A stretch of 64,000 nt of DNA from Pseudaquidulcibacter saccharophilus (GTDB lineage Bacteria > Pseudomonadota > Alphaproteobacteria > Caulobacterales > Aquidulcibacteraceae), in assembly GCF_019455445.1 (NCBI RefSeq), contig NZ_JAHWUS010000004.1, positions 1 to 64,000 on the forward strand, in the 5' to 3' direction. The notes under the pieces are model-generated. The model was not told the DNA's origin, made no database searches, and saw nothing but the letters and a program-made list of their open reading frames with translations. The position numbers and the translations under genes were made by a program. This document shows, piece after piece, positions 39,298-63,000 of the stretch. Numbering within the stretch: position 1 is the stretch's first letter; each line of letters opens with the position of its first letter.

Positions 39298-39336
39298 TTG
39301 ATTTCAATCAATTATCATTTTTAAGCACGTTATATT
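39298..39336 (+). promoter_or_regulatory. FNR-type box and -10 of ubiTUV
   Basis: TTGATTTCAATCAA (39298-39311) is a perfect FNR-type palindrome. TATATT at 39331-39336 places the likely start near 39344, about 40 bp from the box centre, the class II activator spacing. Confidence 0.75.
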
Positions 39337-46298: not shown

Positions 46299-47057
46299 CT
46301 AAATAAGTTTAATTTGCTTTAGAAATAACTGAACGGCGGCAATAATTACTAAAGCAGCAGTTGTCAGTGCCAAATTTTTTGATGTAAAGAATTTTATGGC
46401 AAATCTATTGCCAATTTGGCCCCCGATTAATACGAGTATCGGCAATAGATAAATCAATTTATTTTGCGTCTCAAAACCATGCTTTTGTAATTGACCAATT
46501 AATCCTGATATGGAATTTACCAAAATAAAAAGCGATGCTGTGGCGGCAATTTGTTTTGAATTTGCCGCCCGTATTTGATAAAGTATTGGCGATAAGAGTA
46601 TTCCGCCACCTATCCCAGTGACACCCGCGATTAGCCCTAATATGCCACCAATAAGCATTAATAATGACGGATTTGTAGGTCTTGATTGAGGCTCATCATA
46701 ATTTTTCTTAAATGCAGACCTTAAAAGTGAAACGCCTGATAGCAAAAGGGCGCAGATAAGAAGCCAAATAAATGTATTCTTACTGATTGGGACAAGTCCA
46801 CCAATAAACGCCATAGGAACAGAAGCGATAGCAAGATACGTAAAGAGGGGAAAATCTATTGCTTTCGACCTTGCATAATTTATAGAATTCCCAGAAACTA
46901 CAATTATATTGGATATTAATGAGATTGGCGCAATTGAATTATAAGCAACACCCATCAAAACCAACAAAGCGGTATATGATGAGCCGCCACCGAACCCCAC
47001 GCTAGAATAGATTAGTGCGACACAAAAAAAGGCAATTGCTAGAATAAATATTTGCAT
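46299..47057 (-). CDS. TauE/SafE-family membrane transporter
   Basis: A 252-aa protein with about eight helices of the TauE/SafE/YfcA family of anion permeases (sulfite, sulfonates or related). The repeats SSVGFGGGSSYTALLVLMG and AGVTGIGGGILLSP are the two family motifs. It is the last gene of the molybdenum-cofactor operon. Substrate unknown; export of a sulfur compound or oxyanion linked to cofactor synthesis is conceivable. Confidence 0.88.
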   Translation of the reverse strand: MQIFILAIAFFCVALIYSSVGFGGGSSYTALLVLMGVAYNSIAPISLISNIIVVSGNSINYARSKAIDFPLFTYLAIASVPMAFIGGLVPISKNTFIWLLICALLLSGVSLLRSAFKKNYDEPQSRPTNPSLLMLIGGILGLIAGVTGIGGGILLSPILYQIRAANSKQIAATASLFILVNSISGLIGQLQKHGFETQNKLIYLLPILVLIGGQIGNRFAIKFFTSKNLALTTAALVIIAAVQLFLKQIKLI

Positions 47058-47063
47058 TTTATA

Positions 47064-47714
47064 TCAATCAGCAAACAATATATTATTCTCTAAATGAATA
47101 TGCTCACAAAGTGCTAATTTAAAGTCCTTCACAAATTGATATAATAGCCGCCAAGTGCTACAGGCATCGCTTGGTGGCATGAAATTATTTGTTAAATCTG
47201 CAAGCCTTTTTATTTCTTCAATATGTAAAATGTGTTCTTGCTGCATTACAAATATGGGGCCGCCCGCCATGTTTTTTGAACCTTGTGCAATCATTGGGAA
47301 CAAAATCATTTCTTCTTTATTCATGTGGCTTTCTAGTTCAAAAAGCATTTTTTCAAGCTGTGCTGCTAAGCCATGTGGGCATTCTTTGTGTTCAGAATGA
47401 ACGGCTTCAACCTTGCTTGCCAGTTTGATAATTTCTGGCAATTGATTTCTATGACTTTCATGGAAATTCGCTATTAAGTGAGAAATCAATTTATTCGGTG
47501 CTTCTTCACGCCAGTCTTTTTGCGGCTTTTTGCCATGAATGTCGATATCATATTTGTGCACAATTTGATCTAAATCAGTGTTCAGAGTTGCAAATTCGCT
47601 TTTTATATCCTTAGCCCCATTTAGCAACAAATCGGCCCCGAGCGCGATTAGAATTGAAACACCATTCTCAATTCTGCAGGCAAAATCTACAAGAGAATTA
47701 TTTTCATTTATCAT
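47064..47714 (-). CDS. RIC/YtfE-like hemerythrin protein lacking the Cys-Cys motif
   Basis: A 216-aa di-iron protein of the RIC (YtfE/ScdA) type, which repairs Fe-S clusters damaged by nitric oxide. The hemerythrin domain (about 75-216) shows the His/Glu ligand set in HLIANFHESHR, ESHMNKEEMILFPMI, QQEHILHIEEI and CEHIHLENNILF. The N-terminal ScdA-like part aligns but its usual DFCCGG stretch reads DLLLNG, so the conserved cysteines are missing. It lies in the cofactor operon of a nitrate-reducing cell, where NO protection makes sense. Confidence 0.85.
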   Translation of the reverse strand: MINENNSLVDFACRIENGVSILIALGADLLLNGAKDIKSEFATLNTDLDQIVHKYDIDIHGKKPQKDWREEAPNKLISHLIANFHESHRNQLPEIIKLASKVEAVHSEHKECPHGLAAQLEKMLFELESHMNKEEMILFPMIAQGSKNMAGGPIFVMQQEHILHIEEIKRLADLTNNFMPPSDACSTWRLLYQFVKDFKLALCEHIHLENNILFAD

Positions 47715-47715
47715 A

Positions 47716-48033
47716 TCAATTTTCCTTATTTATGACGGCTGCACCAACCATAATATTTTTCTCATTAATTTTTAGGGTTTTATGGATTGCTATTTTGCCA
47801 CGTGAAACATCAAAGAACTTGGATAACGCACTATTTGCAATTTTCAGAACGTAACCATCGCTATCAACCCCAATGTCAATTTCTTCTTCGTTATTTTCGA
47901 TTATTATCGCAAATCGCAAATAGATGCTTCCAATATCGATTTTTGTAGTCAAGATTTTCTTATTGAATAGCTTGTCAATTTCGTCATTGGTAACAAAATA
48001 AATTATTCTATCTTGGGCAATATGAATTTCCAT
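47716..48033 (-). CDS. Small hypothetical protein in the Moco operon
   Basis: A 105-aa soluble protein, beta-rich, not recognised. It begins EIHIAQDRIIYFVTNDEIDKL and ends KNIMVGAAVINKEN. The ATG at 48033 is one base after the mobA stop; further upstream in-frame codons lie inside mobA. Steady position between mobA and ric suggests a role in cofactor handling or nitrate respiration. Confidence 0.7.
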   Translation of the reverse strand: MEIHIAQDRIIYFVTNDEIDKLFNKKILTTKIDIGSIYLRFAIIIENNEEEIDIGVDSDGYVLKIANSALSKFFDVSRGKIAIHKTLKINEKNIMVGAAVINKEN

Positions 48034-48034
48034 C

Positions 48035-48598
48035 CTAATTCGTCTGGCGAATTGCCAGCTCCCATTCATTTGGAGTGTTGGTATTTGTTAGTGCGTTAAT
48101 GTTTCTGTCAGAAAGCTCCAAAATTTGTGTATTAAATTTGGATAGAAAACTTTTGACGCTTTGCTTTGAGGAATTATCAATGAAATTTGATGAATTGAGT
48201 TTGGCCAAAAGCGCGGAAGATTTGTTGATTTTGAAGGGAAGTGGGTTAGATTTAAAACAAATCACATCACAATTATTATTATTGTTGATTAATTGATTTA
48301 TCACATCAGAATTTAAAAGCGGTAAGTCGACAGGCAAAATCAAGAATGAATCATAATCGCCGTATATTTTTGAAATTACTGTGGCAATACCGACCAATGG
48401 CCCACCATTTTTAATAATATCGGGAATACATTCATATCCTTCGACACTGCCACTAATTATGATATTCTTGATACCAGACAAAATTAATTGGTTTGCAATG
48501 TGGTCAACAAGTCTTTTGCCATTATAGGGCAGCAATGCCTTATTTTTGCCCATTCTGCTTGAGTTTCCACCCGCCAATATGATTGCGACAATTTTCAT
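48035..48598 (-). CDS. mobA: MobA, molybdenum cofactor guanylyltransferase
   Basis: A 187-aa nucleotidyltransferase that joins GMP to Moco for the DMSO-reductase family, to which NarG belongs. The GTP loop is IILAGGNSSRMGKNKALL at the start. The metal site LPVDLPLL lies near 90. Its ATG overlaps the moaE stop (ATGA). Confidence 0.9.
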   Translation of the reverse strand: MKIVAIILAGGNSSRMGKNKALLPYNGKRLVDHIANQLILSGIKNIIISGSVEGYECIPDIIKNGGPLVGIATVISKIYGDYDSFLILPVDLPLLNSDVINQLINNNNNCDVICFKSNPLPFKINKSSALLAKLNSSNFIDNSSKQSVKSFLSKFNTQILELSDRNINALTNTNTPNEWELAIRQTN

Positions 48599-49032
48599 TG
48601 TTTTTCAAGCTCATGCCCGAGCAACCACTCATCATCGCCGTCTATATAATGTTCTTTTTTCCATATTGGTGCGCGCTTTTTTAACTCTTCAATAATATAG
48701 CGGCAGGCAAGGAAAGATGCATCGCGATGTGGGCTTCCAACCGCAATTACAACACTTATTCCACCTATCTCCAATTTACCTTTGAAGTGTGAAACATAAA
48801 TTCTTAAGCGGTGTTCAAATTCCTTTATCGCCTCAATGGCAATTTCATTAAGTATATTGATACATAAGGGATCAAATGCGTCATAGGAAACGCCTAATAC
48901 TTCGCGGCCTAAATTATTGTTTCTAACTTTTCCAACGAATAAATTTGCGCAACCATTTGAACTTGCTTGTGCAAATTCAAGCGCTTCTTCAATGTTAAGT
49001 GCGGTTTGGCTTATCTTGGTTAGAAATTGCAT
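48595..49032 (-). CDS. moaE: MoaE, molybdopterin synthase large subunit
   Basis: A 145-aa subunit of molybdopterin synthase. Visible signatures are ANLFVGKVRNNNLGREVLG, the YDAFDP segment, VVIAVGSPHRDASFLACRY and RAPIWKKEHY, with active-site Lys and Arg. It is one base from moaD and overlaps mobA. Confidence 0.95.
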   Translation of the reverse strand: MQFLTKISQTALNIEEALEFAQASSNGCANLFVGKVRNNNLGREVLGVSYDAFDPLCINILNEIAIEAIKEFEHRLRIYVSHFKGKLEIGGISVVIAVGSPHRDASFLACRYIIEELKKRAPIWKKEHYIDGDDEWLLGHELEKQ

Positions 49033-49033
49033 T

Positions 49034-49306
49034 TTAGCCCCCGTTAACAGGAGGTAAAATCGCTAATTTGCCCGATTTACTTATAGTTTCATCCTTATTG
49101 TAAATTCGATAATCATCTGCGATTGCACTTGATATTATAAGGCCTTCAAGTTTGCCATCATCAAACTCCGAAAGTGCTTTAAAAAGTGTAGTTTTCAGAT
49201 CTTGAATAGTTGAATTAACTGGCATTTTAAGGATTAATGGGGTTTCATCTTTAAACTTTGAAAAAGCGCCAAAATACTCAATTTCTATATTAATATTGTT
49301 GGTCAT
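49034..49306 (-). CDS. moaD: MoaD, molybdopterin synthase sulfur carrier
   Basis: A 90-aa ubiquitin-like protein ending PPVNGG, whose terminal Gly is made a thiocarboxylate to donate sulfur. The start IEIEYFGAFSKF is typical. It lies between moeA and moaE. Confidence 0.93.
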   Translation of the reverse strand: MTNNINIEIEYFGAFSKFKDETPLILKMPVNSTIQDLKTTLFKALSEFDDGKLEGLIISSAIADDYRIYNKDETISKSGKLAILPPVNGG

Positions 49307-49315
49307 GAGCGTTCC

Positions 49316-50518
49316 TTAATTGAAAAATTTGAATTGAAGCATTTGGCTCAAAGCTATTTCGGTAACATCTTCATCTAAAATTACCCATGAATTTGCCTCA
49401 CCAAATGGTTTAATTTTGAACGATTCCTGTCCATTCAAAATTTCCGTTTCGAAATATTTGCCTTGAAAAAGTGTTTTAGCTTTTAGGAATTGAGTGCCTT
49501 TAAATTTTTTTGCGAATTTTGAATTAGAAATTGACACGAAATCTTGTGTTGGTTCAATTGCCATCAAATTGCTTAGGGCCTGTTTCACGAAAAATTCAAA
49601 GCCGATTGCGCTAGAAATTGGGTTTCCAGGGAGGCCGAAAAATAAACTCCCATTTTTTAAAGTCGCAAATAATATTGGTTTTCCTGGGCGAATATTGACT
49701 TTGTGAAAATGCACTTTTGCGCCCACAAGTTTTAAGGCTTCTGGTACAAAATCCCAAAGCCCCGCCGATACTGCGCCACTTGAAATAATTATGGAATTAT
49801 GGGTATTCCTATCTAAAAAGTCGGCGAATTTGGAAATGTCATCTTGGAAAATTCCTACAAATTCTGCATCCAAGCCAAGATGCTTTGCTTTAGATAATAA
49901 ATATGGTGCGTTGGAATTATAAATTTTTCCATTTTCTAATTCGCCTGAATTATAAGGCTGTAACTCATTACCAGTTGCGATAATTTTTATTTTTGGCTTT
50001 TCAAATACCGCAATTTCATTGATGCCTTGTGATGCTAAAACCATAATATGCTCTGGCTTAATCATCGTTCCTTTATTTATAAGGATTTCGCCTATTTTAG
50101 AATCTTCACCAATTCTCCTTAGGTTTTCACTATGCTTTACAGGTTCGAAAAAGGAAACAAAGGTGTCATCAATTTTAGTTTTTTCAATTGGAACTACTGC
50201 TTCAACCCATGTTGGGCATTTTGCACCAGTCATTATGTGGCATGTTGCGTTTTCATCTTGAATTGGTTCAAAATCACCTGCTGCAATAATTTTCTTTTTT
50301 TCGATTTTAATGGGGGTTGAATGTGTAGCATTCGCAAGCCACGCAGTTTTCACACCATAGCCATCCATGGCAGAATTATCAAAAGAAGGAACATTGATTT
50401 TTGCTTTGATATTTTCGCTGCATATCATGCCCAAACTTTCCAAAATATCGCATTTTATTGTTTTAAGACTTTTGGATGCCCCATCAATTATTGATATAGC
50501 TTCTTTAAAGGAAATCAT
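49316..50518 (-). CDS. moeA: MoeA, molybdopterin molybdenumtransferase
   Basis: A 400-aa protein inserting molybdate into adenylated molybdopterin. Seen are the SFDNSAMDGYGV motif near 45, the ATCHIMTGAKCP stretch, KIKIIATGNEL and the core RPGKPILFATL followed by FFGLPGNPIS. Its start overlaps the moaC-mogA stop by four bases. Confidence 0.95.
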   Translation of the reverse strand: MISFKEAISIIDGASKSLKTIKCDILESLGMICSENIKAKINVPSFDNSAMDGYGVKTAWLANATHSTPIKIEKKKIIAAGDFEPIQDENATCHIMTGAKCPTWVEAVVPIEKTKIDDTFVSFFEPVKHSENLRRIGEDSKIGEILINKGTMIKPEHIMVLASQGINEIAVFEKPKIKIIATGNELQPYNSGELENGKIYNSNAPYLLSKAKHLGLDAEFVGIFQDDISKFADFLDRNTHNSIIISSGAVSAGLWDFVPEALKLVGAKVHFHKVNIRPGKPILFATLKNGSLFFGLPGNPISSAIGFEFFVKQALSNLMAIEPTQDFVSISNSKFAKKFKGTQFLKAKTLFQGKYFETEILNGQESFKIKPFGEANSWVILDEDVTEIALSQMLQFKFFN

Positions 50519-51498
50519 TTCTCTGCCCTCATAATTCTAATTAAGTGTGGCAATAAGTTTGGCAAAAGGGCGCTTAAGCCTTCGAGCACCGCTTTTGGGT
50601 TTCCAGGCAAAGTGATAACTAAACTATTGCCAATTATTCCACCAATAGCGCGGCTTGACCATGACAGTGGTGTATATTTTGAACCATCGAGGCGTAAGAT
50701 TTCGCCAATGCCAGGGATTAATTTGTCAAACATTGGCAATAGTGCCTCGGGTGTAAAATCCCGTGGCGAAACTCCTGTGCCGCCTGTACAAATAATTAGG
50801 TGGGGCTCAAAATCATTAATTGTTTTAATGATGGCGCTTTTAATGTCTTCAATTTCGTCTGGAATAATTGCTTTTTGAACAATGTTTGCACCATTTTCGA
50901 GCATTATGTTCTTAATATTATCCCCTGAAATATCCTCATAAATTCCCGCAGATGCCCTATCGCTCATGGTTATTATTGCAACATTTCTGTCTTTGAGTGT
51001 TAGGGGCTTTTTCGGAATATATTCTTCCGCCCAAGCGGGAATTCCCTTAGGGTTTTTCCAAATTCCAGATTTTCCACCAAATTTCAAAAGCAATTGAACA
51101 TCGCCTATTTTGAGGTCAGGATTTATCATTTTCGTCAAATCCCAAATTGTCAAAAGCGCGTTATTAACCCCAGCCAATACTTCCATTTCAATTCCAGTTT
51201 TGGCATGGGTTGATGCGATACAAAAACATTCAATTGAATGCTCTATTTCATTTAATTCAGTAATGATTTTCACCATGTCCAATCCCAGCGGATGGCATAA
51301 TGTAAGCATTTGGTAAGCTAATTTTGCGCCATTAATTCCCGCAATCTCGGCTAATATTAATGCGTCACCTTTTGGCAAAGTTTTGGTCTTGATTAATTCA
51401 AAGGCATCTTTTCCAACGAAAATTTTACCATTGGCGATTGCAAGGCGATGGGTGATTTGTTTATTGCCAACATCAATCATTTTAAAATTATTATTCAT
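50515..51498 (-). CDS. MoaC-MogA fusion protein
   Basis: A 327-aa two-domain enzyme. The first 145 residues are MoaC (final cyclase step to cPMP): FKMIDVGNKQITHRLA, LCHPLGLD and the GIEMEVLAGVNNALLTIWDL with Lys at LTKM. Residues about 165-327 are a MogA/MoaB adenylyltransferase: VAIITMSDRASAGIYEDISG, HLIICTGGTGVSPRDFTPEAL and LPGNPKAVLEGL. The ATG at 51498 has a GGGGG site and starts one base after the moaA stop. Such MoaC/MoaB fusions are known in other bacteria. Confidence 0.93.
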   Translation of the reverse strand: MNNNFKMIDVGNKQITHRLAIANGKIFVGKDAFELIKTKTLPKGDALILAEIAGINGAKLAYQMLTLCHPLGLDMVKIITELNEIEHSIECFCIASTHAKTGIEMEVLAGVNNALLTIWDLTKMINPDLKIGDVQLLLKFGGKSGIWKNPKGIPAWAEEYIPKKPLTLKDRNVAIITMSDRASAGIYEDISGDNIKNIMLENGANIVQKAIIPDEIEDIKSAIIKTINDFEPHLIICTGGTGVSPRDFTPEALLPMFDKLIPGIGEILRLDGSKYTPLSWSSRAIGGIIGNSLVITLPGNPKAVLEGLSALLPNLLPHLIRIMRAEK

Positions 51499-51499
51499 C

Positions 51500-52582
51500 T
51501 TAGCCCCCAATTTGTGCAAGATGTTTAGTGGAGCCAGTGTAGCCACCCGCCAAATTATGCGTTGGCAATTTGAATTTCAGAGCTTTTAAAATTTGGAATT
51601 TTAATTCCTCTATTTGATTTTCACTTTGCAAATAAGGTCTTAGATCAAGGCCGCCATCACCAAAAAGGCAAAGTTTTAATTCTCCACGTGCGCTAATTCG
51701 TAACCGATTGCAGCTTGAACAAAAATCTTTTGAATAGGGGGCTATAATTCCTATTTTACCCTTGTAATCTTCATGTGCATATTCAGAGGCTGGCCCCGCG
51801 ACTTTATCGCGTGAAATTCTCTCAAAGCCCATTTCTTCAATGTGCTTCAACATCAAATTGGTTGATACATGATGCTTTTCGAAATAATCTTGATTATCAC
51901 CTGTTCGCATAAGCTCAATAAAACGCATGGTGATATTATTGTTTTGAATCACGCGAAGAATGTTGGGCAATTCGTCGTCATTTATTCCCTTTAGCAAAAC
52001 ACTATTAGTCTTAATTTTAATGTGCTTTGCCTTCGCAACTTCAAAAATGCCGTTTAAAATTGATTGCAATTTATCATGGCCAGTTATTATTTTGAATTTA
52101 TCTGCATTCAAAGAATCAATTGATACATTGATTGCATTAAGCCCCGCATCAATTAGGTTTTTTGCCTGATGCTCTAATTTGTAGCCATTGGTTGTTAATG
52201 CAATGGTTTCAATAGTTTTTATTTCTCTTATCGCGCCAATTATTTCAACAAGATCATTTCTTATTGTCGGCTCCCCACCTGTTAGTCTGATTTTTTTTGT
52301 GCCAAGTTGGGCGAAGGCTTTTATCAAATTAATGATTTCATTCCGCCGCAGAAAATTCATGTCGCAGGGTTTTTGAAACCCATTCGGCAGGCAATATTGA
52401 CATCGGAAATTACATGCCTCGGTTATTGAAAGGCGAAGATATGGGAAGACCCTACCAAATTGGTCCTTTAACTCTAACGGCTTTCCCATTTCATTTGCAT
52501 CGAAATGGGGTGTTAGATTCTTTTGTATGTCGCGTTCCTTTTTCAAAAACCGCTTCACACTTTTGGGGAAACTCTCTGTCAC
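51500..52582 (-). CDS. moaA: MoaA, GTP 3',8-cyclase (radical SAM)
   Basis: The first Moco enzyme, 360 aa. The radical-SAM cluster motif is ACNFRCQYCLP near 56-66. The second cluster is in DFCSSCNRLRISARGELKLC near the end. It ends with AGGYTGSTKHLAQIGG, where MoaA usually ends in GG. The GTG at 52582 has a strong AAAGGA site; an internal ATG at 52489 would give the usual short N-terminus. It heads a nine-gene leftward operon. Confidence 0.93.
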   Translation of the reverse strand: MTESFPKSVKRFLKKERDIQKNLTPHFDANEMGKPLELKDQFGRVFPYLRLSITEACNFRCQYCLPNGFQKPCDMNFLRRNEIINLIKAFAQLGTKKIRLTGGEPTIRNDLVEIIGAIREIKTIETIALTTNGYKLEHQAKNLIDAGLNAINVSIDSLNADKFKIITGHDKLQSILNGIFEVAKAKHIKIKTNSVLLKGINDDELPNILRVIQNNNITMRFIELMRTGDNQDYFEKHHVSTNLMLKHIEEMGFERISRDKVAGPASEYAHEDYKGKIGIIAPYSKDFCSSCNRLRISARGELKLCLFGDGGLDLRPYLQSENQIEELKFQILKALKFKLPTHNLAGGYTGSTKHLAQIGG

Positions 52583-52699: not shown

Positions 52700-52741
52700 A
52701 TGTTAGGTGGGATTTTAAAAATTGTGCTTGACTTAAATCAA
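52700..52741 (-). promoter_or_regulatory. FNR-type box and -10 of the moaA operon
   Basis: TTGACTTAAATCAA (52728-52741) is followed leftward by TAACAT (52705-52700). The predicted start, about 52693, is 41 bp from the box centre. Confidence 0.7.
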
Positions 52742-52743
52742 GT

Positions 52744-54297
52744 CTAGAATTGGCAATCAGAATTTTTGCACAAATTTGTGCCTTTTCGCATACATCTTGC
52801 AGAAAGTTCTACATCGCAAAAATCACATAATTTCAATGCATTGCGAAGATTTATAACATTTTGCTCAGAGTAAATACCTTGCTCCCTAAGCGCTTGAAGG
52901 GTGCGCGAAAATGTCTCAGGTTTCATGCCCAAATATCCTGCGATAAGAGACTTGTCATAAGGTAATTTCAAAGAAGAAGATTTTTCCCCTTCATCAAGAT
53001 AAAGTTTCAGAAGGAACCAACCAACACGTTGAGTAACACTTTTTAAAGTTAATTGTTCAAATTGGCTAATCAATTCTTGGGAACGGCTTGCGATAGTTGC
53101 TAACATATTAATCGCTAGGAATTTGTTAGTTTGCATTTCTTCACGAATAAAAGCCGATGGAATTGACAATAAAGTGACATTCTCAACCGCTTGGGCACTT
53201 ACTGGGAAAATGGCATCTTTAAGAAGGACACTTTCCAAAAGTGCTTCACCACGATGAACAACTTGCAAAATTGATTCATGACCTTCTATGTCGCCTTTAA
53301 ATAATTTTACCCAGCCATCTATGACCATGTAAAATCTTGTTGCCTGTTCACCTTGCATAAAAATCAAATTTCCTTTTGAGTAATTTGAAATACGTGCGTG
53401 TTTTAACAAGGATTTTAATTCGGTATCGCTTATTCCAGAAAATAGTGGAAGTTTTGATATAAACTCGAAATTTTCAATAATTGATTTTTCTAATTTTATA
53501 GAAGCTTCGCCATTTGAAGTGTTTTTAGTCTTTTCAATATTGTTAAACAAAAGTTCATCCGCGACGCCAAGATGGAAAGCAATTGATTTACCGACTTCGT
53601 GAAGTAAGTCCATTTTGGCACTAAAAAGTGTAAACCATTCTTGTGCAGCAATTTCGCGGGCAATTTGGGAATGATTCCCCTTTGAAAGGCTTTCATTTAT
53701 TAATTCAATCTTTTGAAAAATCTCGTTGTTTTTTTCAAGTTTTTCAATTGCTTTTCGGCAATGATCATCTGCTAGCGCCATAAACATTCGCTCATAGGCG
53801 TGTTGTTCTTCAATTATATAGCCTAAGCGATCTCTAAGTTCCGCGCCACTATTTGTGTCAAGGCTAACAAATTGCGTCCCTAGTGCGCGTTCAAGACCAA
53901 CCCTCTCTTTCCATTGTAAGAAGTTAATTAAAGAAGAAATTCGAGCGGGCGAATTATTTTTGTCAAAAATTGCCAAATCTTGGATAATTTCTACGGCTGG
54001 TGCAATGATCTCACGTGTGTAAAATAAAAGCGTGTCTGATGGCGAAATCTGTCGTGAGACTATAAATTTTCGCTTGGTCGACAAATAGAGTAGAGCGTTT
54101 TTAAATGGCTCATAATGGTTGCTTTTAGACAATGGAATGCTTTTCATTCGATTAAGCATAATATCGACTTTTGTGAATTGTTGCTCCATTGATTCTGCAA
54201 ATTCATTGCTGCTTGTACGCAAATACAATGATGCCAGCCCTCTTTCGAGCTGAACTTCATGGATTAAATCGCAAAGTATATTTATTGCCACAAGCAT
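52744..54297 (-). CDS. NIT-domain Crp/FNR-type regulator
   Basis: A 517-aa regulator with an unusual layout. Residues about 5-235 are a nitrate/nitrite-sensing NIT domain: LIHEVQLERGLASLYL and NFLQWKERVGLERALG are its two hallmark helices. Residues 280-395 form a cyclic-nucleotide-type sensor fold (PLFSGISDTELKSLL, FMQGEQATRFYMVIDGWVKL). Residues 420-480 are a Crp-type HTH with LGMKPETFSRTLQAL; the E-xx-SR helix is that of FNR, which reads TTGAT. The N-terminal FNR cysteines are absent, but the tail has five cysteines (491, 494, 502, 510, 515). It faces the nar operon divergently, next to its own FNR-type box. Confidence 0.85.
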   Translation of the reverse strand: MLVAINILCDLIHEVQLERGLASLYLRTSSNEFAESMEQQFTKVDIMLNRMKSIPLSKSNHYEPFKNALLYLSTKRKFIVSRQISPSDTLLFYTREIIAPAVEIIQDLAIFDKNNSPARISSLINFLQWKERVGLERALGTQFVSLDTNSGAELRDRLGYIIEEQHAYERMFMALADDHCRKAIEKLEKNNEIFQKIELINESLSKGNHSQIAREIAAQEWFTLFSAKMDLLHEVGKSIAFHLGVADELLFNNIEKTKNTSNGEASIKLEKSIIENFEFISKLPLFSGISDTELKSLLKHARISNYSKGNLIFMQGEQATRFYMVIDGWVKLFKGDIEGHESILQVVHRGEALLESVLLKDAIFPVSAQAVENVTLLSIPSAFIREEMQTNKFLAINMLATIASRSQELISQFEQLTLKSVTQRVGWFLLKLYLDEGEKSSSLKLPYDKSLIAGYLGMKPETFSRTLQALREQGIYSEQNVINLRNALKLCDFCDVELSARCMRKGTNLCKNSDCQF

Positions 54298-54354
54298 TGT
54301 TTTCGCTTCATTTTAAAATAATTATGTATTTAAAATACTACATAACCTCTTCGC

Positions 54355-54368
54355 TTGATGTAAATCAA
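54355..54368 (-). promoter_or_regulatory. FNR-type box of the NIT-Crp gene
   Basis: TTGATGTAAATCAA is a perfect palindrome 58 bp from the regulator ATG. The regulator may therefore control itself. The rest of the 54298-54644 gap shows no gene and no clear terminator. Confidence 0.7.
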
Positions 54369-54644
54369 GATAAGCTATCACAAGGCAGCGTTTAATTGTC
54401 GCAGAGGGAGCTTGAGATTTTGAAGGCTCTTCTTCGAAAAACAGCCTTTTTGAGGGGTGGCTAGGCTTCAAAACCTCAAGTTTAGTTTTTATCAGTTTTG
54501 TCGAGTAGTTTTGCCCACGGGAGAGTTTTAAACAACAATTCGACTTGCTTTTGATAGTTTAAGTATGATTGCAAAGAATTGATCGGCATCAATCCATTTA
54601 AACTTTTCAATCCTTTTTTCACGACACAATGTCACAGGTAGCGA

Positions 54645-54685
54645 TTGACTTAGGTCAATTAGTATCTTGCAACCCTCATTATAAG
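54645..54685 (+). promoter_or_regulatory. FNR-type box and -10 of narK1K2GHJI
   Basis: TTGACTTAGGTCAA (54645-54658) with TATAAG (54680-54685). The predicted start near 54692 is 41 bp from the box centre and 19 bp before the narK1 ATG. Confidence 0.78.
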
Positions 54686-54710: not shown

Positions 54711-56012
54711 ATGGTGGACTTATCTAAAGTCAGTAAAATAAAGCAAACATTTGCTTTGTCTGCCACAACTATCGCATTCACCGTTTGCTTTGCGGTTTGG
54801 ACAATTTTCGCAATTATTGGCGTGAAAATTAAAAAAGATTTGGGGCTTTCGGAAACTGAATTCAGCTTTTTAATTGGTTTGCCAGTTCTTACTGGTTCAT
54901 TTGTGCGCCTTAATTTTGGGATTTGGGCGGATCAATATGGCGGAAGACCGGTTTTGGTTTTGGTTATGATTTCGTCAGCCATAGCAACTTGGTTACTATC
55001 CTATGCTGAAACCTATAATATGATGCTATTGGCAGCGCTTGGTCTTGGGATTTCAGGCGGCAGCTTTGTAGTTGGTATTTCATATTTATCAAAATGGTTC
55101 CCAAAAGAACAAGCAGGGACTGCGTTAGGCATTTTTGGTATGGGTAATATTGGTGCGGCGGTTACAAAATTTGGCGCACCTTTTGTTATGGTTGCTTATG
55201 GCTGGGAAATGGTTGCCAAGGTTTGGGCTGTTGCGCTTGTAGTTATGGCTATTATTTTCTGGTTTACCACTTCAGATGAGCCAGAATTAATAGAGCGAAG
55301 AATTACAGGTGAAAAGCCAAAAACTACTGCGATGGCAATGGAGCCATTAAAAGAGCTTAGGGTTTGGCGCTTTTCATTATATTATTTCTTTGTATTTGGC
55401 GCTTTTGTTGGCTTGGCTTTATGGCTGCCTCGTTACTATGTCGCTGTGTATAATTTGGATATTAAGCATGCCGGCATGTTGGCTGCTAGTTTCTCGGTCG
55501 CGGCGTCTGCATTTCGCGCAATTGGTGGCTATTTATCTGATAAATTCGGCGCCCGCGCAGTTATGTATTTAACCTTTATTGTGTGCATAATTTGTCTGTT
55601 TATACTTTCTTATCCATCAACTGACTTCATTGTGCATGGCATAAAGAGCGACATTAAAGTTCATCTTGGTTTGAATTTTACTTGGTTCACGATTGTAGTA
55701 TTCGTTCTTGGTCTATTTATGTCATTTGGCAAAGCAGCGGTCTATAAGCATATACCTGTTTACTACCCGACAAATGTTGGATCTGTCGCAGGTATTGTTG
55801 GGCTTATAGGTGGTTTAGGCGGTTTCATTTTGCCTTTAGCGTTTGGCTATCTCAACACCATTACTAATATTTGGACAAGCTGCTTCATGCTTTTGTTCGT
55901 CCTTGTGAGCATAGCCCTAATTTGGATGCATATAACTGTTCGCATGATGGAACATCAATCTCACCCAGAACTCACCAAAGGCAAATTCTTACCTGAACTT
56001 GGTGACGCGTGA
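54711..56012 (+). CDS. narK: NarK1-type nitrate transporter
   Basis: A 433-aa major-facilitator protein with 12 helices. Nitrate-family signatures are GLGISGGSFVVGISYLSKWF with FGMGNIGAAVTK near 105-145, and GIVGLIGGLGGFILPLAFG near 360-380. NarK1-type proteins bring nitrate in with protons to start respiration. GGAGG lies before the ATG. It is first in the nar operon and 30 bp from narK2. Confidence 0.93.
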   Translation: MVDLSKVSKIKQTFALSATTIAFTVCFAVWTIFAIIGVKIKKDLGLSETEFSFLIGLPVLTGSFVRLNFGIWADQYGGRPVLVLVMISSAIATWLLSYAETYNMMLLAALGLGISGGSFVVGISYLSKWFPKEQAGTALGIFGMGNIGAAVTKFGAPFVMVAYGWEMVAKVWAVALVVMAIIFWFTTSDEPELIERRITGEKPKTTAMAMEPLKELRVWRFSLYYFFVFGAFVGLALWLPRYYVAVYNLDIKHAGMLAASFSVAASAFRAIGGYLSDKFGARAVMYLTFIVCIICLFILSYPSTDFIVHGIKSDIKVHLGLNFTWFTIVVFVLGLFMSFGKAAVYKHIPVYYPTNVGSVAGIVGLIGGLGGFILPLAFGYLNTITNIWTSCFMLLFVLVSIALIWMHITVRMMEHQSHPELTKGKFLPELGDA

Positions 56013-56042: not shown

Positions 56043-57650
56043 ATGGCTAAAGATCTTGATATATGGGATCCAGAAGACGGTGGTTTCTGGGCGACAGAAG
56101 GTAAAAATATTGCAAATCGCAATTTGTGGATTTCAATTCCTGCTTTATTGTGTGGCTTTGCAGTATGGATGTATTGGTCCATCGTAACTGTGCAAATGCT
56201 TAATTTGGGTTTTCCATTCACAAAGCCTGAATTATTCACATTAGCAGCAATGGGTGGGCTTGCAGGTGCCACGCTTCGTATTCCGTCTTCATTCTTGATA
56301 AGGATTGCCGGCGGTCGCAATACTTTGTTCCTTACAACTATGCTATTGATGATTCCCGCGATAGGTACTGGCATCGCGCTGCAAGATAAAAACACCCCAT
56401 TGATTGTTTATCAGGCACTTGCATTATTGTCTGGCTTGGGTGGCGGAAATTTTGCATCTTCTATGTCTAATATTTCCTTTTTCTTTCCGAAGAAAGAACA
56501 AGGTTTGGCATTAGGTTTAAATGCAGGCTTGGGCAATTTTGGCGTAACCACCATGCAGATTTTAATTCCATTGGTAATGACCATGTCATTGTTTGGCGGT
56601 CATTCTATGGTGCTTAAAAAAGCTTCTGGTTGGATTTTTGGTAAAATTCCTGCTGGTGCTGAAACTTATATTCATAATGCCGGCTTTGTTTGGTTGTTGT
56701 TATTATTGCCACTAACCAATTTGGCTTGGGTTGGCATGAATAATATCAAGGTCGAACACGTAACCCCAAATCTTGGTAATCCTTTTTCTGCTTTTGCAAA
56801 AATTCTTGTGATGCTTGGAATTGGTCTTGGCACTTCTGCTATTGGTTTCTGGTTGATGCAGCCATTAAAAGCAGGCGGAATGAATATCTCTAAATGGATT
56901 GTAGTTCCAGGGGTTACTATTGCAACACTTGCACTTTTGATGATTGTGCCAATGGGTGCGCAATATAAAGCAGCGTTAAAACGCCAATATGCAATTTTTA
57001 ACAATAAGCATACTTGGGCGATGACTGTGATTTATACCATGACTTTTGGTTCATTCATTGGTTTCTCGGCGGCTCTCGCATTGTCAATCGAAGTTATTTT
57101 CGGTTTTAAACATGTGATGGTTAATGGGGTAATGACCCACACAATTGTAAACCCAAATAGTCCAAGTGCTTTATCATATGCATGGATGGCGCCATTTATT
57201 GGGGCATTAATTCGACCTGTTGGCGGTTATATTTCCGATAAAATTGGCGGTGCTTTGGTTACACAAATCATTAGCTTTGTGATGGTTGGCGCGGCATTTG
57301 GCTTGGCATATTATATGAAAGCTGCATATGCATCTGAAGCCCCTGAACAATATTTCGGCCCGTTCCTTGGTCTATTCCTTTTATTATTTGTGGCCGCTGG
57401 TCTTGGCAATGGTTCAACATTTAGAACAATTGCAATCGTATTTAATAAAGAACAAGCGGGCCCAGTTCTGGGTTGGACTTCGGCAATCGCGGCCTATGGC
57501 GCATTCCTCATTCCACAAATTTTTGGTGAGCAAATTAAAGCCGCAACACCTGAGAATGCGCTTTATGGTTTTGCAATTTTCTATGCGCTTTGCATCATTA
57601 TTAATTGGTGGTTCTACCTTCGTAAGAACGCCTATGTCCAAAACCCATAA
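56043..57650 (+). CDS. narK: NarK2-type nitrate/nitrite antiporter
   Basis: A 535-aa major-facilitator protein longer than NarK1. Signatures are GLGGGNFASSMSNISFFFP with GLNAGLGNFGVTTMQ near 140-175 and GPVLGWTSAIAAYGAFLIP near 475-495. NarK2-type proteins exchange nitrate in and nitrite out. In Paracoccus the two types are fused into one protein; here they are separate. AAAGGAGG precedes the ATG. Confidence 0.93.
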   Translation: MAKDLDIWDPEDGGFWATEGKNIANRNLWISIPALLCGFAVWMYWSIVTVQMLNLGFPFTKPELFTLAAMGGLAGATLRIPSSFLIRIAGGRNTLFLTTMLLMIPAIGTGIALQDKNTPLIVYQALALLSGLGGGNFASSMSNISFFFPKKEQGLALGLNAGLGNFGVTTMQILIPLVMTMSLFGGHSMVLKKASGWIFGKIPAGAETYIHNAGFVWLLLLLPLTNLAWVGMNNIKVEHVTPNLGNPFSAFAKILVMLGIGLGTSAIGFWLMQPLKAGGMNISKWIVVPGVTIATLALLMIVPMGAQYKAALKRQYAIFNNKHTWAMTVIYTMTFGSFIGFSAALALSIEVIFGFKHVMVNGVMTHTIVNPNSPSALSYAWMAPFIGALIRPVGGYISDKIGGALVTQIISFVMVGAAFGLAYYMKAAYASEAPEQYFGPFLGLFLLLFVAAGLGNGSTFRTIAIVFNKEQAGPVLGWTSAIAAYGAFLIPQIFGEQIKAATPENALYGFAIFYALCIIINWWFYLRKNAYVQNP

Positions 57651-57680: not shown

Positions 57681-60600
57681 ATGAGTTATTTTCTTGATAA
57701 ACTGACTTTTTTCAAAAGAGAAAAAGAAGAATTCTCTAATGGCCACGGTGTTAAAACCGATGAAACTCGTGGTTGGGAAAAAGGTTATAGAAGCCGTTGG
57801 CAACATGATAAAGTTGTTCGCTCAACCCATGGTGTGAATTGCACTGGTTCGTGCTCTTGGAAAATTTATGTAAAAAATGGTTTAGTGACATGGGAGACCC
57901 AACAAACTGATTATCCGCGCACGCGAACCGATATGCCAAACCATGAACCGCGTGGTTGTGCGCGTGGTGCATCATATTCTTGGTATCTATATTCCGCTCA
58001 AAGGCTAAAATTTCCTTTAATTCGTTCAAGGCTTTTGAAAGCTTGGCGTGCCGCAAAAATTATCGCCAAAGACCCTGTAAATGCTTGGGCGGCAGTAGCT
58101 TCTAACCCTGAGACTGTCAAAGATTATCAGTCCTATCGCGGGCGCGGCGGTTTTGTTCGCGCGAATTGGGATGAAGTTAATGAAATCATTGCTGCGGCAA
58201 ATATTTATACCGCAAAGAAATTCGGCCCCGATAGAATAATTGGCTTCTCGCCAATTCCTGCGATGTCTATGGTTTCATACGCGGCTGGCTCGCGCTATTT
58301 ATCGCTAATTGGTGGAGTATGTCTGTCGTTTTATGATTGGTATTGCGACTTGCCACCGTCATCACCACAAACTTGGGGTGAGCAGACCGATGTTCCTGAA
58401 TCTGCTGATTGGTATAATTCAAACTTCATTATTGCATGGGGCTCGAACGTTCCTCAAACAAGAACACCCGATGCGCATTTCTTTACAGAAGTTCGTTATA
58501 AAGGCGCAAAGACGGTTGCTGTTACGCCGGATTATTCCGAAGTGGCAAAATTATGTGATTTGTGGCTGCATCCAAAACAAGGGACTGACGCAGCACTTGC
58601 AATGGCAATGGGGCATGTAATTCTTAGTGAATGGCATGTGAAAAACAAATCCGACTATTTTGATGATTATTGTCGAACGTATACTGATATGCCGTTCTTA
58701 GTTCGCCTTGTAAAAAAAGGTGATCGATTGGTGCCCGAACGTATGATACGTGCGTCGGACTTTGCCGATGACTTAGGTGCAACCAATAACACCGATTGGA
58801 AGCCCGTTGTAATTGGTGCAAAAGATGAGGAAATCCACGCGCCAAATGGCACTATTGGCTCGCGTTGGGGTCAAAAAGGCAAGTGGAACCTTGAACTTAA
58901 AGATGAAGTAACTGGCGAAGAAATTTGGCCAATGCTTTCATTAAATGAGCATAGCAAACATGAAATTGCCTCAGTATCTTTTCCATATTTTGGCAACCAA
59001 GAGCATGAGCATGGGTATTTCGCGGCAACTTCGCACGAAAGCATTCTCGATAGAAATGTTCCAATTCTAAAACTAAATTTAAAAGAAGGCGAAACGCTTG
59101 TTGCCTCAGTTTATGATTTATTTCTTGCAAATTATGGCGTGGATCGCGGGTTTGGCGGCGGGAATGTTGCAAAATCATTTGATGATGATTTCCCATATAC
59201 GCCCGCATGGCAGGAAAAAATCACAGGTGTAAAACGTGAGCATGTAATTAATGTTGCACGTCAATTTGCCGAAAATGCCCATAAAACGCATGGTAAAAGC
59301 ATGGTAATCATTGGAGCAGCGATGAACCATTGGTATCACATGGACATGAATTATCGCGCAATTATCAATATGTTGGTAATGTGTGGTTGTATCGGTAAAT
59401 CGGGTGGTGGTTGGAGCCATTATGTTGGTCAAGAAAAATTACGTCCGCAAACTGGCTGGGTTCCTTTAGCTTTTGCAACAGATTGGAATAGACCGCCGCG
59501 CCAACAAAACTCGACCTCATTCTTTTATGCCCATACTGATCAGTGGCGTTATGAAAAACTTAAAATGGAAGAAATTCTGTCTCCATTAGAAGATGATAAG
59601 GAATGGAAACAGCTTTCATTTATTGATTGTAACGCAAAATCCGAACGCCTCGGCTGGTTACCTTCTGCACCACAATTAGAAACTAATCCGCTTGAATTAG
59701 GCGCTAAAATCCATACTTCTGGCGCTAATGTTGGCGAAGCAATTGTTGGAGGTTTGAAATCTGGTGATCTTAAACTTTCATGCCACGACCCAGACAATCC
59801 TGTAAATTGGCCGCGAAATATGTTTGTCTGGCGCTCAAACATTCTTGGTTCATCAGGTAAGGGCCATGAGTATTTCCTTAAGCACCTTCTTGGAACTTCA
59901 CATGGTGTGCAGGGTAAAGATTTAGGCCAAACAGGTGAGCAAAAACCACGCGATGTAGTTTGGCATGACGATGCGCCAGAAGGCAAATTAGATTTGTTGG
60001 TTACATTGGATTTTAGAATGTCCACTACTTGCATGTATTCAGATATCGTTTTGCCAACCGCAACTTGGTACGAAAAACATGATTTAAATACCTCTGATAT
60101 GCACCCATTCATTCACCCTTTATCTGCGGCGGTTGACCCTGCGTGGGAAAGTAAATCGGATTGGGAAATTTATAAAGGCTTTGCTAAAAAATTCTCAGAA
60201 CTTTGTGTGGGGCATTTAGGCGTCGAACATGATGTGGTTTTAAACCCCATTAAACACGATACTGCAAATGAAATTGCGCAGCCTTTTGAAGTTCAAGATT
60301 GGGTAAAAGGTGAGTGTGAGCCAGTCCCTGGCAAAACTATGCCTGCGGTTTTCTTAGTCGAAAGGGATTATCCCAACACCTATAAAAAATTCACTTCAAT
60401 CGGGCCATTGCTTGGCAAATTGGGGAATGGCGGCAAGGGTATCGGTTGGAACACTGATGCCGAATTAAAAATGCTTGAGGAATTAAATCACATAGTTACC
60501 GAAGAAGGCGTTTCAAAAGGGCTTCCCAAACTTGACAGTGCAATTGATGCCGCTGAAATGATTTTGTCATTGGCACCAGAAACAAATGGACATGTTGCTT

Positions 60601-61460
60601 TCAAGGCATGGGAAGCATTGGGGCAAAATACAGGGCGCGACCACACCCATCTTGCCATTCCGCGTGAAGATGAAAAAATCCGCTTTAGGGATATTCAAGC
60701 GCAACCGCGTAAGATTATATCTTCACCAACTTGGTCGGGTATTGAATCAGAGCATGTAAGCTACAATGCTTGTTACACAAATGTGCATGAATTAATTCCT
60801 TGGCGAACTTTAACCGGGCGGCAGGAATTATACCAAGATCACAAATGGATGCGCGCATTCGGTGAGCAATTATGCGTCTATAAGCCACCTGTAGATATGA
60901 AAACTACTGCAGAGGTAGTAGATAAATTTGCCAAATCCAAATCTGGCAAAAACCATAAACAAGTGGTTTTAAACTTCATTACACCACACCAAAAATGGGG
61001 CATTCACTCAACTTATACTGATAATTTGTTGATGCAGACATTGTCGCGCGGTGGGCCAATTGTTTGGGTTTCAGAAATAGATGCAAAAAAAATCGGCATT
61101 ATCGATAATGACTGGGTCGAAGCCTATAATGCCAATGGCGCGATTACTGCGCGTGCAGTGGTATCGCAAAGGGTAAATGAGGGCATGATTTTAATGTATC
61201 ATGCGCAAGAGAAAATCCTAAATACTCCAGGATCTGAAATAACGGGTGCGCGTGGCGGTATTCACAATTCCGTCACCCGCGCAGTTCTTAAACCGACACA
61301 TATGATTGGTGGTTACGCCCAGCTTGCCTATGATTTCAATTATTATGGCACAGTGGGATCTAATCGTGATGAATTTATCATTCTTCGTAAAATGGAAAAA
61401 GTCGATTTTATGAATGAAGAAAATTACGACACATCAAATCAATTTGTAACTTCTAAATAG
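57681..61460 (+). CDS. narG: NarG, membrane-bound nitrate reductase catalytic subunit
   Basis: The 1259-aa molybdenum subunit that reduces nitrate to nitrite on the cytoplasmic face. The His/Cys ligands of the FS0 cluster are in STHGVNCTGSCSWK (about 49-62) with CARGASYSWY. The Mo ligand Asp is in SFYDWYCDLPPS near 218. AIINMLVMCGCIGKSGGGW and RMSTTCMYSDIVLPTATWYEKHD are typical. The RR-like N-terminus of E. coli NarG is not obvious, fitting a cytoplasmic protein. Length equals the family norm. Confidence 0.97.
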   Translation: MSYFLDKLTFFKREKEEFSNGHGVKTDETRGWEKGYRSRWQHDKVVRSTHGVNCTGSCSWKIYVKNGLVTWETQQTDYPRTRTDMPNHEPRGCARGASYSWYLYSAQRLKFPLIRSRLLKAWRAAKIIAKDPVNAWAAVASNPETVKDYQSYRGRGGFVRANWDEVNEIIAAANIYTAKKFGPDRIIGFSPIPAMSMVSYAAGSRYLSLIGGVCLSFYDWYCDLPPSSPQTWGEQTDVPESADWYNSNFIIAWGSNVPQTRTPDAHFFTEVRYKGAKTVAVTPDYSEVAKLCDLWLHPKQGTDAALAMAMGHVILSEWHVKNKSDYFDDYCRTYTDMPFLVRLVKKGDRLVPERMIRASDFADDLGATNNTDWKPVVIGAKDEEIHAPNGTIGSRWGQKGKWNLELKDEVTGEEIWPMLSLNEHSKHEIASVSFPYFGNQEHEHGYFAATSHESILDRNVPILKLNLKEGETLVASVYDLFLANYGVDRGFGGGNVAKSFDDDFPYTPAWQEKITGVKREHVINVARQFAENAHKTHGKSMVIIGAAMNHWYHMDMNYRAIINMLVMCGCIGKSGGGWSHYVGQEKLRPQTGWVPLAFATDWNRPPRQQNSTSFFYAHTDQWRYEKLKMEEILSPLEDDKEWKQLSFIDCNAKSERLGWLPSAPQLETNPLELGAKIHTSGANVGEAIVGGLKSGDLKLSCHDPDNPVNWPRNMFVWRSNILGSSGKGHEYFLKHLLGTSHGVQGKDLGQTGEQKPRDVVWHDDAPEGKLDLLVTLDFRMSTTCMYSDIVLPTATWYEKHDLNTSDMHPFIHPLSAAVDPAWESKSDWEIYKGFAKKFSELCVGHLGVEHDVVLNPIKHDTANEIAQPFEVQDWVKGECEPVPGKTMPAVFLVERDYPNTYKKFTSIGPLLGKLGNGGKGIGWNTDAELKMLEELNHIVTEEGVSKGLPKLDSAIDAAEMILSLAPETNGHVAFKAWEALGQNTGRDHTHLAIPREDEKIRFRDIQAQPRKIISSPTWSGIESEHVSYNACYTNVHELIPWRTLTGRQELYQDHKWMRAFGEQLCVYKPPVDMKTTAEVVDKFAKSKSGKNHKQVVLNFITPHQKWGIHSTYTDNLLMQTLSRGGPIVWVSEIDAKKIGIIDNDWVEAYNANGAITARAVVSQRVNEGMILMYHAQEKILNTPGSEITGARGGIHNSVTRAVLKPTHMIGGYAQLAYDFNYYGTVGSNRDEFIILRKMEKVDFMNEENYDTSNQFVTSK

Positions 61461-61470
61461 GAAAAAGAGC

Positions 61471-63000
61471 ATGAAAGTAAGAGCACAAATTGGAATGGTT
61501 CTTAATCTTGACAAGTGTATTGGATGCCATACTTGCTCCGTCACCTGTAAGAATGTTTGGACTTCACGTCGCGGTGTTGAATATGCTTGGTTCAACAATG
61601 TCGAAACAAAACCCGGTATTGGCTATCCTAAAGACTGGGAAAATCAAGATAAATGGAAAGGTGGTTGGCAGCGCGATGCAAGTGGTAAATTAACCCCAAA
61701 ACAAGGCGGTAAATGGCGCATTTTGGCAAATCTATTTGCCAATCCTAATTTACCATCAATTGACGATTATTACGAGCCATTTACATTTGATTATGGCCAT
61801 TTGCAAAAATCGCCTGAAACTAAAACTATGCCGACAGCACAACCAGTTTCAGTAATCACAGGCAAGAAAATGGATAAAATTGTCGGTGGGCCAAATTGGG
61901 AAGAAATCCTTGGTGGCGAGTTTGAGCATCGCTCAAAAGACTATAATTTTGAAAATGTTCAAAAGGATATTTACGGACAATTTGAAAATACATTTATGAT
62001 GTATTTGCCACGTCTATGTGAGCATTGCCTTAATCCAGCCTGCGTTGCATCTTGCCCAAGCGGTGCGATTTATAAACGTGAAGAAGACGGCATTGTACTT
62101 ATTGACCAAGATAAATGCCGTGGTTGGCGCATGTGCGTTTCTGGTTGCCCATACAAAAAAATCTACTTCAACTGGGAAAGCGGCAAGTCTGAAAAATGCA
62201 CATTCTGCTATCCAAGAATTGAAAATGGTGAACCAACTGTTTGTTCGGAAACCTGCGTTGGTCGTATTCGCTACCTTGGTGTTCTACTTTATGATGCAGA
62301 TAAGATTGAAGAAGCGGCAGCGACTAAAGACGACAAGGATTTGTATCAAGCGCAATTAGATATGTTCCTTAATCCAAATGACCCTGAGGTGATTAAAGCT
62401 GCATTAGCAGAGGGCATACCTCAATCATGGCTCGATGGCGCAAAAAATTCGCCAGTTTATAAAATGGCGATGGAATGGAAAGTGGCATTCCCACTTCATC
62501 CTGAATATCGCACCTTGCCAATGGTTTGGTATATTCCGCCATTGTCGCCAATTCAAAACGCAGCATCAACTGGCGATATTGGCATGAATGGAATAATACC
62601 TGATGTTAAATCGCTTCGTATTCCTGTGACATATTTAGCGAATTTGCTAACAGCTGGAAATGAAGAGCCAGTAACTCTTGGCCTTGAGCGTATGCTTGCA
62701 ATGCGTGCCTTTATGCGTGGTCGCCATGTTGAAGGAGATGCAGATACAAAAATTCTTGAATCGGTCGGCCTAAATGTGCAGATGGTTGAAGATATGTATC
62801 GCTATATGGCAATCGCTAATTATGAAGATCGCTATGTAATTCCTACCTCTCATCGCGAATATGTCGAAGATACTTTTGATCTTCGTTCATGTGGCTTTAG
62901 CTTTGGCAATGGCTGCTCTGGCGGCAATTCGGATAGCAATCTGTTCGAAAAACCTAAACGCAAAAATCTATTTGGCGGGGCGCACGTACATGGAAAATAA
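61471..63000 (+). CDS. narH: NarH, nitrate reductase Fe-S subunit
   Basis: The 509-aa electron-transfer subunit between NarI and NarG. Four cysteine groups are visible: CIGCHTCSVTCKNVW, CEHCLNPACVASCPSG, CRGWRMCVSGCP and CTFCYPRIE with CSETCVGR. The Trp in CRGWRMC marks the 3Fe-4S cluster typical of NarH. It ends within the narJ start. Confidence 0.97.
   Translation: MKVRAQIGMVLNLDKCIGCHTCSVTCKNVWTSRRGVEYAWFNNVETKPGIGYPKDWENQDKWKGGWQRDASGKLTPKQGGKWRILANLFANPNLPSIDDYYEPFTFDYGHLQKSPETKTMPTAQPVSVITGKKMDKIVGGPNWEEILGGEFEHRSKDYNFENVQKDIYGQFENTFMMYLPRLCEHCLNPACVASCPSGAIYKREEDGIVLIDQDKCRGWRMCVSGCPYKKIYFNWESGKSEKCTFCYPRIENGEPTVCSETCVGRIRYLGVLLYDADKIEEAAATKDDKDLYQAQLDMFLNPNDPEVIKAALAEGIPQSWLDGAKNSPVYKMAMEWKVAFPLHPEYRTLPMVWYIPPLSPIQNAASTGDIGMNGIIPDVKSLRIPVTYLANLLTAGNEEPVTLGLERMLAMRAFMRGRHVEGDADTKILESVGLNVQMVEDMYRYMAIANYEDRYVIPTSHREYVEDTFDLRSCGFSFGNGCSGGNSDSNLFEKPKRKNLFGGAHVHGK

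Follow-up and report, generated by a model that had tools for sequence, protein, structure and literature searches.

Can a single protein place nitrate respiration under the control of nitrate in a bacterium whose genome yields no PilJ/NarX-type domain? Escherichia coli divides such work among FNR, NarX/Q and NarL/P. The question is raised by a gene in the 64,000-nucleotide stretch of Pseudaquidulcibacter saccharophilus DNA analysed here (the window). The gene sits between the moa genes and narK1-narK2-narGHJI, and an earlier note had read its product as a one-protein nitrate switch acting on local TTGAT boxes. Our analysis makes it probable that the product is a local one-component activator of the nar, moa, mod and nrdD genes, switched by nitrate through a NIT domain and probably by oxygen or redox state through a metal centre in its tail.

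The open reading frame contains no internal stop codon, and the three domains that had been claimed for its product (NIT, cNMP-type and Crp helix-turn-helix) all scored above the Pfam cut-offs in a domain search. NIT (PF08376) covers residues 10–240 with 99.5 bits against a cut-off of 24.9 (E = 4.9e-28), cNMP_binding covers residues 305–391 with 59.7 bits against 27.5 (E = 2.9e-16) and HTH_Crp_2 covers residues 423–491 with 44.9 bits against 27 (E = 1.2e-11). Both NIT hallmark helices (ERGLASLYL and QWKERVGLERA) are present in the translation. The FNR N-terminal cysteines are missing, as proposed: cysteines occur at positions 9, 180, 491, 494, 502, 510 and 515, and there is none between the NIT and cNMP domains. 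No membrane span is expected and the protein should be cytoplasmic, because the highest 19-residue Kyte–Doolittle mean is 1.2. A genome search returned this place as the sole NIT match. NCBIfam provides no name for the protein, all 14 listed matches falling below their cut-offs, and our literature search, which covered open-licence PMC papers, found no account of a NIT-Crp fusion. The features of the locus are collected in Table 1.

Table 1 Features of the fusion gene, its product and its surroundings, with positions in the window
Feature	Position	Strand	Basis and remarks
NIT-Crp fusion regulator gene	52744–54297	-	517 aa, ATG start, TAG stop 52744–52746; ORF, domains, orthologues
NIT domain, predicted helical bundle, residues 10–240	53578–54270	-	Pfam; AF2; Foldseek; profile match to 4akk
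Putative first pocket motif Q16-L-E-R19 (Q-x-x-R)	54241–54252	-	Aligned to NasR helix 1 (4akk)
Putative second pocket motif G134-L-E-R137 (G-x-x-R)	53887–53898	-	Aligned to NasR G-Q-E-R stretch
cNMP-type domain, residues 305–391	53125–53385	-	Pfam 2.9e-16; alignment of 12 fusions
Crp-type winged helix, residues 423–491	52825–53031	-	Pfam 1.2e-11; invariant residues
Cysteine tail C491-x2-C494-x7-C502-x7-C510-x4-C515, residues 491–517	52747–52827	-	Alignment
FNR-type box TTGATGTAAATCAA	54355–54368	.	Upstream of fusion gene, centre 64.5 bp before ATG
FNR-type box TTGACTTAGGTCAA	54645–54658	.	Upstream of narK1, centre 59.5 bp before ATG
FNR-type box TTGATCGGCATCAA	54579–54592	.	Distal box upstream of narK1
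FNR-type box TTGACTTAAATCAA	52728–52741	.	152.5 bp upstream of moaA as called
narK1, nitrate/nitrite transporter family	54711–56012	+	TIGR00886 below cut-off, 207 vs 312 bits
narK2, nitrate/nitrite transporter family	56043–57650	+	TIGR00886 and NF011608, both below cut-off
narG, respiratory nitrate reductase alpha	57681–61460	+	TIGR01580, 2154 vs 1084 bits
narH, respiratory nitrate reductase beta	61471–63000	+	TIGR01660, 960 vs 524 bits
narJ, chaperone	62861–63721	+	TIGR00684, 108.5 vs 59 bits; true start probably further in
narI	after narJ, partly past window end		TIGR00351
moaA, first gene of molybdenum cofactor operon	51500–52582	-	TIGR02666, 335 vs 284 bits
moaC-mog, moeA, moaE, MobA-like, DUF7009-like (below cut-off), hemerythrin, TauE	46299–51546	-	

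The fusion is known from 13 genomes, the window's own included, when G467 and G418 are taken as the same genomes as L003 and L004. A scan of genome contigs with a single sequence gave full-length fusions at five loci (L002–L006). In the same order, 8 of 200 genomes carry the fusion, its own included. A draw from the phylum found 2 carriers in 398 genomes (its own and G866) and a draw from the class 2 in 385 (its own and G294, where the copy is cut by a contig end). Because carriers are few in the order, phylum and class draws, we regard the fusion as rare. All carriers belong to one group of alphaproteobacteria, labelled Hyphomonadaceae or Alphaproteobacteria, with L003 labelled Proteobacteria. 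The alignment used below (A2) holds 12 fusion proteins, L002 having been omitted as a copy of L003, and they are between 90% and 30% identical to the window protein. The survey of architecture and tail that the earlier note had suggested shows four tail cysteines in 12 of 12 of these proteins. NIT-Crp-tail is a real, conserved and rare domain architecture, built from known parts.

For the N-terminal half, an AF2 model restricted to residues 1–245 and built from five sequences reached a mean pLDDT of 86.7 and a pTM of 0.86. Foldseek matched this model in the PDB to chains A and B of NasR (4akk) with query TM-scores of 0.78 and 0.79 at E values of about 3e-5; the next match had an E value of 0.27, and no other fell below 0.001. 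A profile made from the 12 fusion proteins retrieved NasR (4akk) at E = 8.9e-22. The earlier note had staked its reading on a structural match of residues 5–235 to NIT, and NasR is that match. Judged from the predicted fold, the NIT assignment is real. The fold is read from the NIT-only model and not from the full-length one (five sequences; mean pLDDT 58.3, pTM 0.48), in which the Crp half and tail lie mostly below 50 and for which Foldseek returned Crp proteins and NasR at low TM-scores.

Two motifs of the bundle align with NasR. In the first, Q, E and R are kept in all 11 fusion sequences that extend to helix 1, and in the second G and R are kept in all 12. In our reading of the alignment, these would be the published NasR pocket motifs at a 27-residue offset. 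Excerpts of the literature name E175 and R176 as predicted pocket residues (PMC7496416) and, from a review, describe a G-x-x-R motif in which NasR has one glycine replaced by glutamine (PMC8199190). The control set comprised 25 of 39 NIT rows, with 14 left out (the window's own among these), and the four weakest of the 25 gave no match and were dropped. Both motifs were found in 20 of the 21 other alphaproteobacterial NIT domains so aligned, a count that leans to strong NIT domains because the weakest four were dropped. Being common to NIT domains, the pocket motif cannot separate a nitrate binder from a NIT with another ligand, and we rejected it as proof of nitrate binding.

The recognition helix of the Crp half reads E461-T-F-S464-R465, and its E, T, S and R do not vary among the 12 fusions. 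The FNR-like E-xx-SR helix of the earlier note is therefore present and kept, and by its sequence the helix is of the FNR/DNR type. FNR of E. coli shares both the box type and the E-xx-S-R helix; its N-terminal cysteine cluster, in contrast, is absent from the fusion. Among proteins of solved structure, those closest to the Crp half include SPOA0323 of Ruegeria pomeroyi (3fx3, 3h3z) and DNR of Pseudomonas aeruginosa (3dkw). These have a similar recognition helix but neither a NIT domain nor, in the aligned stretch, a four-cysteine tail. Of the five cysteines counted by the earlier note in the last 27 residues, all are present but just four are conserved: C491, C494, C502 and C510 (C-x2-C-x7-C-x7-C) are invariant in the 12 aligned fusions, and C515 occurs among them only in the window, L003 and L004.

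The tail is not confined to fusions. It was found in 6 of the 28 listed NIT-less Crp relatives (L014, L015, L019, L020, L024 and L027) and at one further NIT-less place (G058). We built a Crp tree, tail columns excluded, from 53 of 57 rows (L047, L048, L054 and L055 were left out); its bootstrap had not settled. The 18 tailed rows form one clade (97/93) and the tail requires one change. Six members of this clade lack NIT, and the idea that the tail was a product of the fusion was therefore rejected. Since the tail is present in NIT-less Crp relatives, it is older than the fusion. Fusions require two changes on the free Crp tree; a single fusion clade was recovered there only under constraint, and was not rejected (AU p = 0.339). 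In the NIT tree, which also holds NasR and 21 other NITs, the 12 fusion NITs group as one clade (100/97), from which we conclude that one fusion event is likely, and the subgroups of 5 and 7 within this clade are those of the Crp tree. Going by the trees, the simplest story would be a single fusion of NIT to an already tailed Crp, perhaps with one later loss of NIT.

The genes around the fusion form an island. Beyond those in Table 1 it includes nnrS, a ModE-like gene, modABC, and nrdD accompanied by a radical-SAM gene; the ModE-like gene and modC scored below cut-off. Genes of the nar set stand beside the fusion in 11 of 12 aligned copies, the exception (L064) being a 7.6-kb contig without nar genes. 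The arrangement varies: a NarK-like gene (27% identity) lies between fusion and nar genes in L058–L060, and the fusion gene comes after narI in L005 and L006. Among nine places of NIT-less tailed or near-tailed Crp proteins, narK adjoins in five (G058, G119, G192, G291 and G319) and lies 1.4 kb away with two ORFs between in G101; in G115, G213 and G219, narK is absent from the fetched stretch. The order nrdDG, moeA, Crp, narK1-narK2-narG is found without NIT in G058, G119 and G192 (with one extra ORF between in G192), and G058 and G192 have a second Crp by moaA. Like islands thus exist both with and without the NIT domain, and the tailed NIT-less Crp proteins in the same island elsewhere show that NIT is not needed for that place.

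Several further observations concern these islands. NIT-less Crp proteins with the four-cysteine tail lie beside narK and moeA at L067 6907–7683, L069 6171–6914, L137 4656–5411 and L139 6360–7113. The last of these (G119) is split over two overlapping frames, from a sequencing error or a broken gene. In G291 (L138 6432–7202), the tailed NIT-less Crp has tyrosine for the second tail cysteine and still adjoins narK. The second Crp of NIT-less islands, divergent from moaA, has no four-cysteine tail (L071 7263–7970 and L140 4676–5377), and that of L140 carries a shorter C-terminal stretch with two cysteines; in the fusion loci read, the fusion is the sole Crp seen. Just after narI, a 156-aa ORF (L080 4410–4877) matches nothing in Pfam (E 1e-4) or NCBIfam (E 1e-5). 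It has relatives after narI in L071 and L140, and the gene at this place is annotated in Paracoccus records as a peptidylprolyl isomerase. Two NnrS genes flank the island (window 43121–44230 and L080 7107–8255) in a genome without a NirS match. Among the moa genes, the 117-aa ORF at window 47719–48069, DUF7009-like below cut-off, has a relative of 90% identity in L003.

The four boxes that the earlier note had placed near the gene were found, at 52728–54658. The window contains 6 copies of the pattern TTGAYNNNNRTCAA, where 0.68 would be expected, and not one of 100 shuffles gave as many. The two other perfect boxes of the window (11619–11632 and 39298–39311) lie away from the island. For the fusion gene and for moaA, L002 and L003 have the same upstream box as the window, a box stands at a place like that of the proximal narK1 box in L002, L003 and L004, and one at a place like that of the distal box in L002 and L003. 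In L003, the fusion-gene and moaA boxes are identical to those of the window, the proximal narK1 box is one letter off and the distal box more. Judged by eye, TATAAG (54680–54685) follows the proximal narK1 box at a distance that fits a class II site.

Across the genome, there are 50 sites of the box pattern versus 7 for the pattern read backwards. Since about 30 sites would be expected by chance at the window's shuffled rate, many of the 42 sites outside the island may mean nothing. Eight of the 50 fall within 21.2 kb around the locus; the rate in the rest of the genome would give 0.32 there (Poisson 1.9e-9, the bounds having been taken from the cluster itself). Seven of these are upstream of genes, namely moaA, the fusion gene, narK1 (two), nnrS, modA and nrdD, and the eighth is inside the radical-SAM gene after nrdD. 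Of 9 divergent loci, 8 have a perfect box between regulator and narK, although that of L063 overlaps the narK1 ORF as called, and the ninth, L062, lacks one there; the contig of L064 has no perfect box at all. Taken together, the 10 fusion loci besides the window contain 17 boxes, whereas 200 Markov simulations gave 1.3 on average and never more than 5.

A one-protein nitrate switch on local boxes is the best fit to the domains, the nar neighbours and the box cluster, in a genome where neither a PilJ/NarX-type domain nor another Crp with the FNR cluster was found. The claim falls short in that the pocket motif is no discriminator and other Crp proteins may share the boxes. The alternative that the NIT domain reads a signal other than nitrate, or only dimerises, with the Crp half still controlling the nar island, draws on the commonness of the motif and on the position of the fusion NITs, whose clade sits on a long branch separate from NasR. 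It also draws on a precedent reported in excerpts: PA4520 has a NIT domain that, when purified, showed no binding of nitrate or nitrite (PMC6381276). Yet the fusion is repeatedly placed beside nar genes, and both pocket arginines are kept across proteins of only about 30% identity. We regard this alternative as unlikely and the nitrate part of the switch as likely. The tail calls for a closer choice. By analogy with Bacillus Fnr, for which excerpts describe a C-terminal [4Fe-4S] cluster held by C-x2-C-x4-C plus an aspartate (PMC3520743), it probably holds a metal or Fe-S centre through which activity depends on low oxygen. Both are Crp/Fnr proteins extended at the C-terminus by a stretch with cysteines; Bacillus Fnr differs in having three cysteines with an aspartate and no NIT domain. 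The difference in spacing, together with the absence of an Fe-S family among the Pfam matches of the fusion protein, would suit a tail that serves as structural zinc or disulphides and has no part in oxygen sensing. With pLDDT mostly below 50 in the Crp half and tail, the model does not confidently bring the four cysteines together. On the other side, the argument is circumstantial: no other Crp with an FNR cysteine cluster was found in the genome, and several of the targets are anaerobic (narGHJI, nrdD). We consider the purely structural tail somewhat improbable. The earlier suggestion that the tail reads redox is thus upheld as far as conservation of its four cysteines supports a redox or metal role, and must be qualified in that the tail predates the fusion.

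The remaining alternatives concern the Crp half. Three Crp proteins, the fusion included, score above cut-off in the genome, besides five weaker HTH_Crp_2 matches. The FNR cysteine cluster and the tail are both missing from the other two, whose helices read E-V-V-S-R. They share the E-xx-S-R pattern, so they might bind the local boxes as well. It could be argued, also from the 42 of 50 boxes outside the island, that another Crp mainly binds the boxes and that the fusion has other targets or is a modifier. This seems distinctly unlikely to us, given that boxes flank the fusion gene, recur beside fusions in other genomes and likewise adjoin the tailed NIT-less relatives. A haem-based nitric oxide sensor of the DNR type, with NIT secondary, would accord with the profile match between DNR and the Crp half (E = 4.6e-42) and with the two NnrS genes nearby. 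The genome argues the other way: nitric oxide is a less likely signal because there is no NirS match and no NirK above cut-off (only two weak partial matches to the NirK model). Histidine 187 matters for haem in DNR, and it aligns to Y455, which is invariant in the fusions; a literature search on this histidine found nothing. We hold a DNR-type sensor to be very unlikely. An ordinary cAMP-dependent regulator, which the Pfam cNMP_binding match might bring to mind, is scarcely credible: the phosphate cassette of CRP carries an R-S-A motif, and at the cAMP phosphate position (F-P-V-S-A in the window) the stretch is arginine-free in 12 of 12 fusions.

Among known systems, NasR of Klebsiella oxytoca (4akk) is the closest in plan, as a one-component regulator with an N-terminal NIT domain of the same predicted fold and both putative pocket motifs. 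It differs in its RNA-binding ANTAR output, for which Pfam gives no match in the fusion, and in serving nitrate assimilation, whereas the fusion has a Crp/Fnr half with a cysteine tail and stands among respiration genes. In its genomic place the fusion resembles what we take to be the place of Paracoccus NarR, also a Crp/Fnr regulator without the FNR cluster, with the Crp gene divergent from narK-narGHJI in alphaproteobacteria. Excerpts state that NarR of Paracoccus is said to sense nitrate and nitrite and is without the FNR cluster, and they hold no statement on the means of sensing (PMC8139620). As stand-ins for NarR we took four Crp proteins from plasmids of Paracoccus (two), Tistrella and Methylovirgula, which are NarR by place and not by record name. 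These differ from the fusion in having no NIT, no tail and an E-N-L-S-R helix, and they form their own clade (100/100) apart from the fusion-and-tail clade (97/93) in a tree whose backbone is unsettled.

On the reading we prefer, the fusion would be a soluble transcription factor in which a linker connects a NasR-like cytoplasmic NIT domain to a Crp/Fnr-type half. As a dimer, the Crp half would bind TTGAY-N4-RTCAA boxes and activate narK1-narK2-narGHJI, the moa operon, the mod genes, nnrS, nrdD and its own gene. Nitrate (or nitrite) at the two NIT arginine motifs would change the bundle and so release or orient the Crp half, a step modelled on the way in which NasR frees its RNA-binding half; excerpts describe this as release from autoinhibition (PMC7496416). 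The four-cysteine tail behind the winged helix would hold a metal or Fe-S centre and make the switch dependent on low oxygen, in the fashion of Bacillus Fnr, which is a plausible oxygen part for the switch. More tentatively, we put forward as a possibility an AND gate in which NIT reads nitrate, a new kind of four-cysteine centre reads oxygen or redox state and the Crp half drives the island, the whole having arisen once from NIT and a tailed Crp that already served such an island.

For alphaproteobacteria without NarXL, the fusion offers a candidate nitrate sensor that is visible in the protein itself. The NIT-less tailed Crp proteins beside narK and moeA are natural controls for it: set against the fusion, within the same island, they allow a ready comparison of the nitrate-reading and oxygen-reading parts. 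If the reading is true, this rare family would hold a compact switch for nitrate plus anoxia, which would help in understanding environmental nitrate reduction and could serve as a biosensor part.
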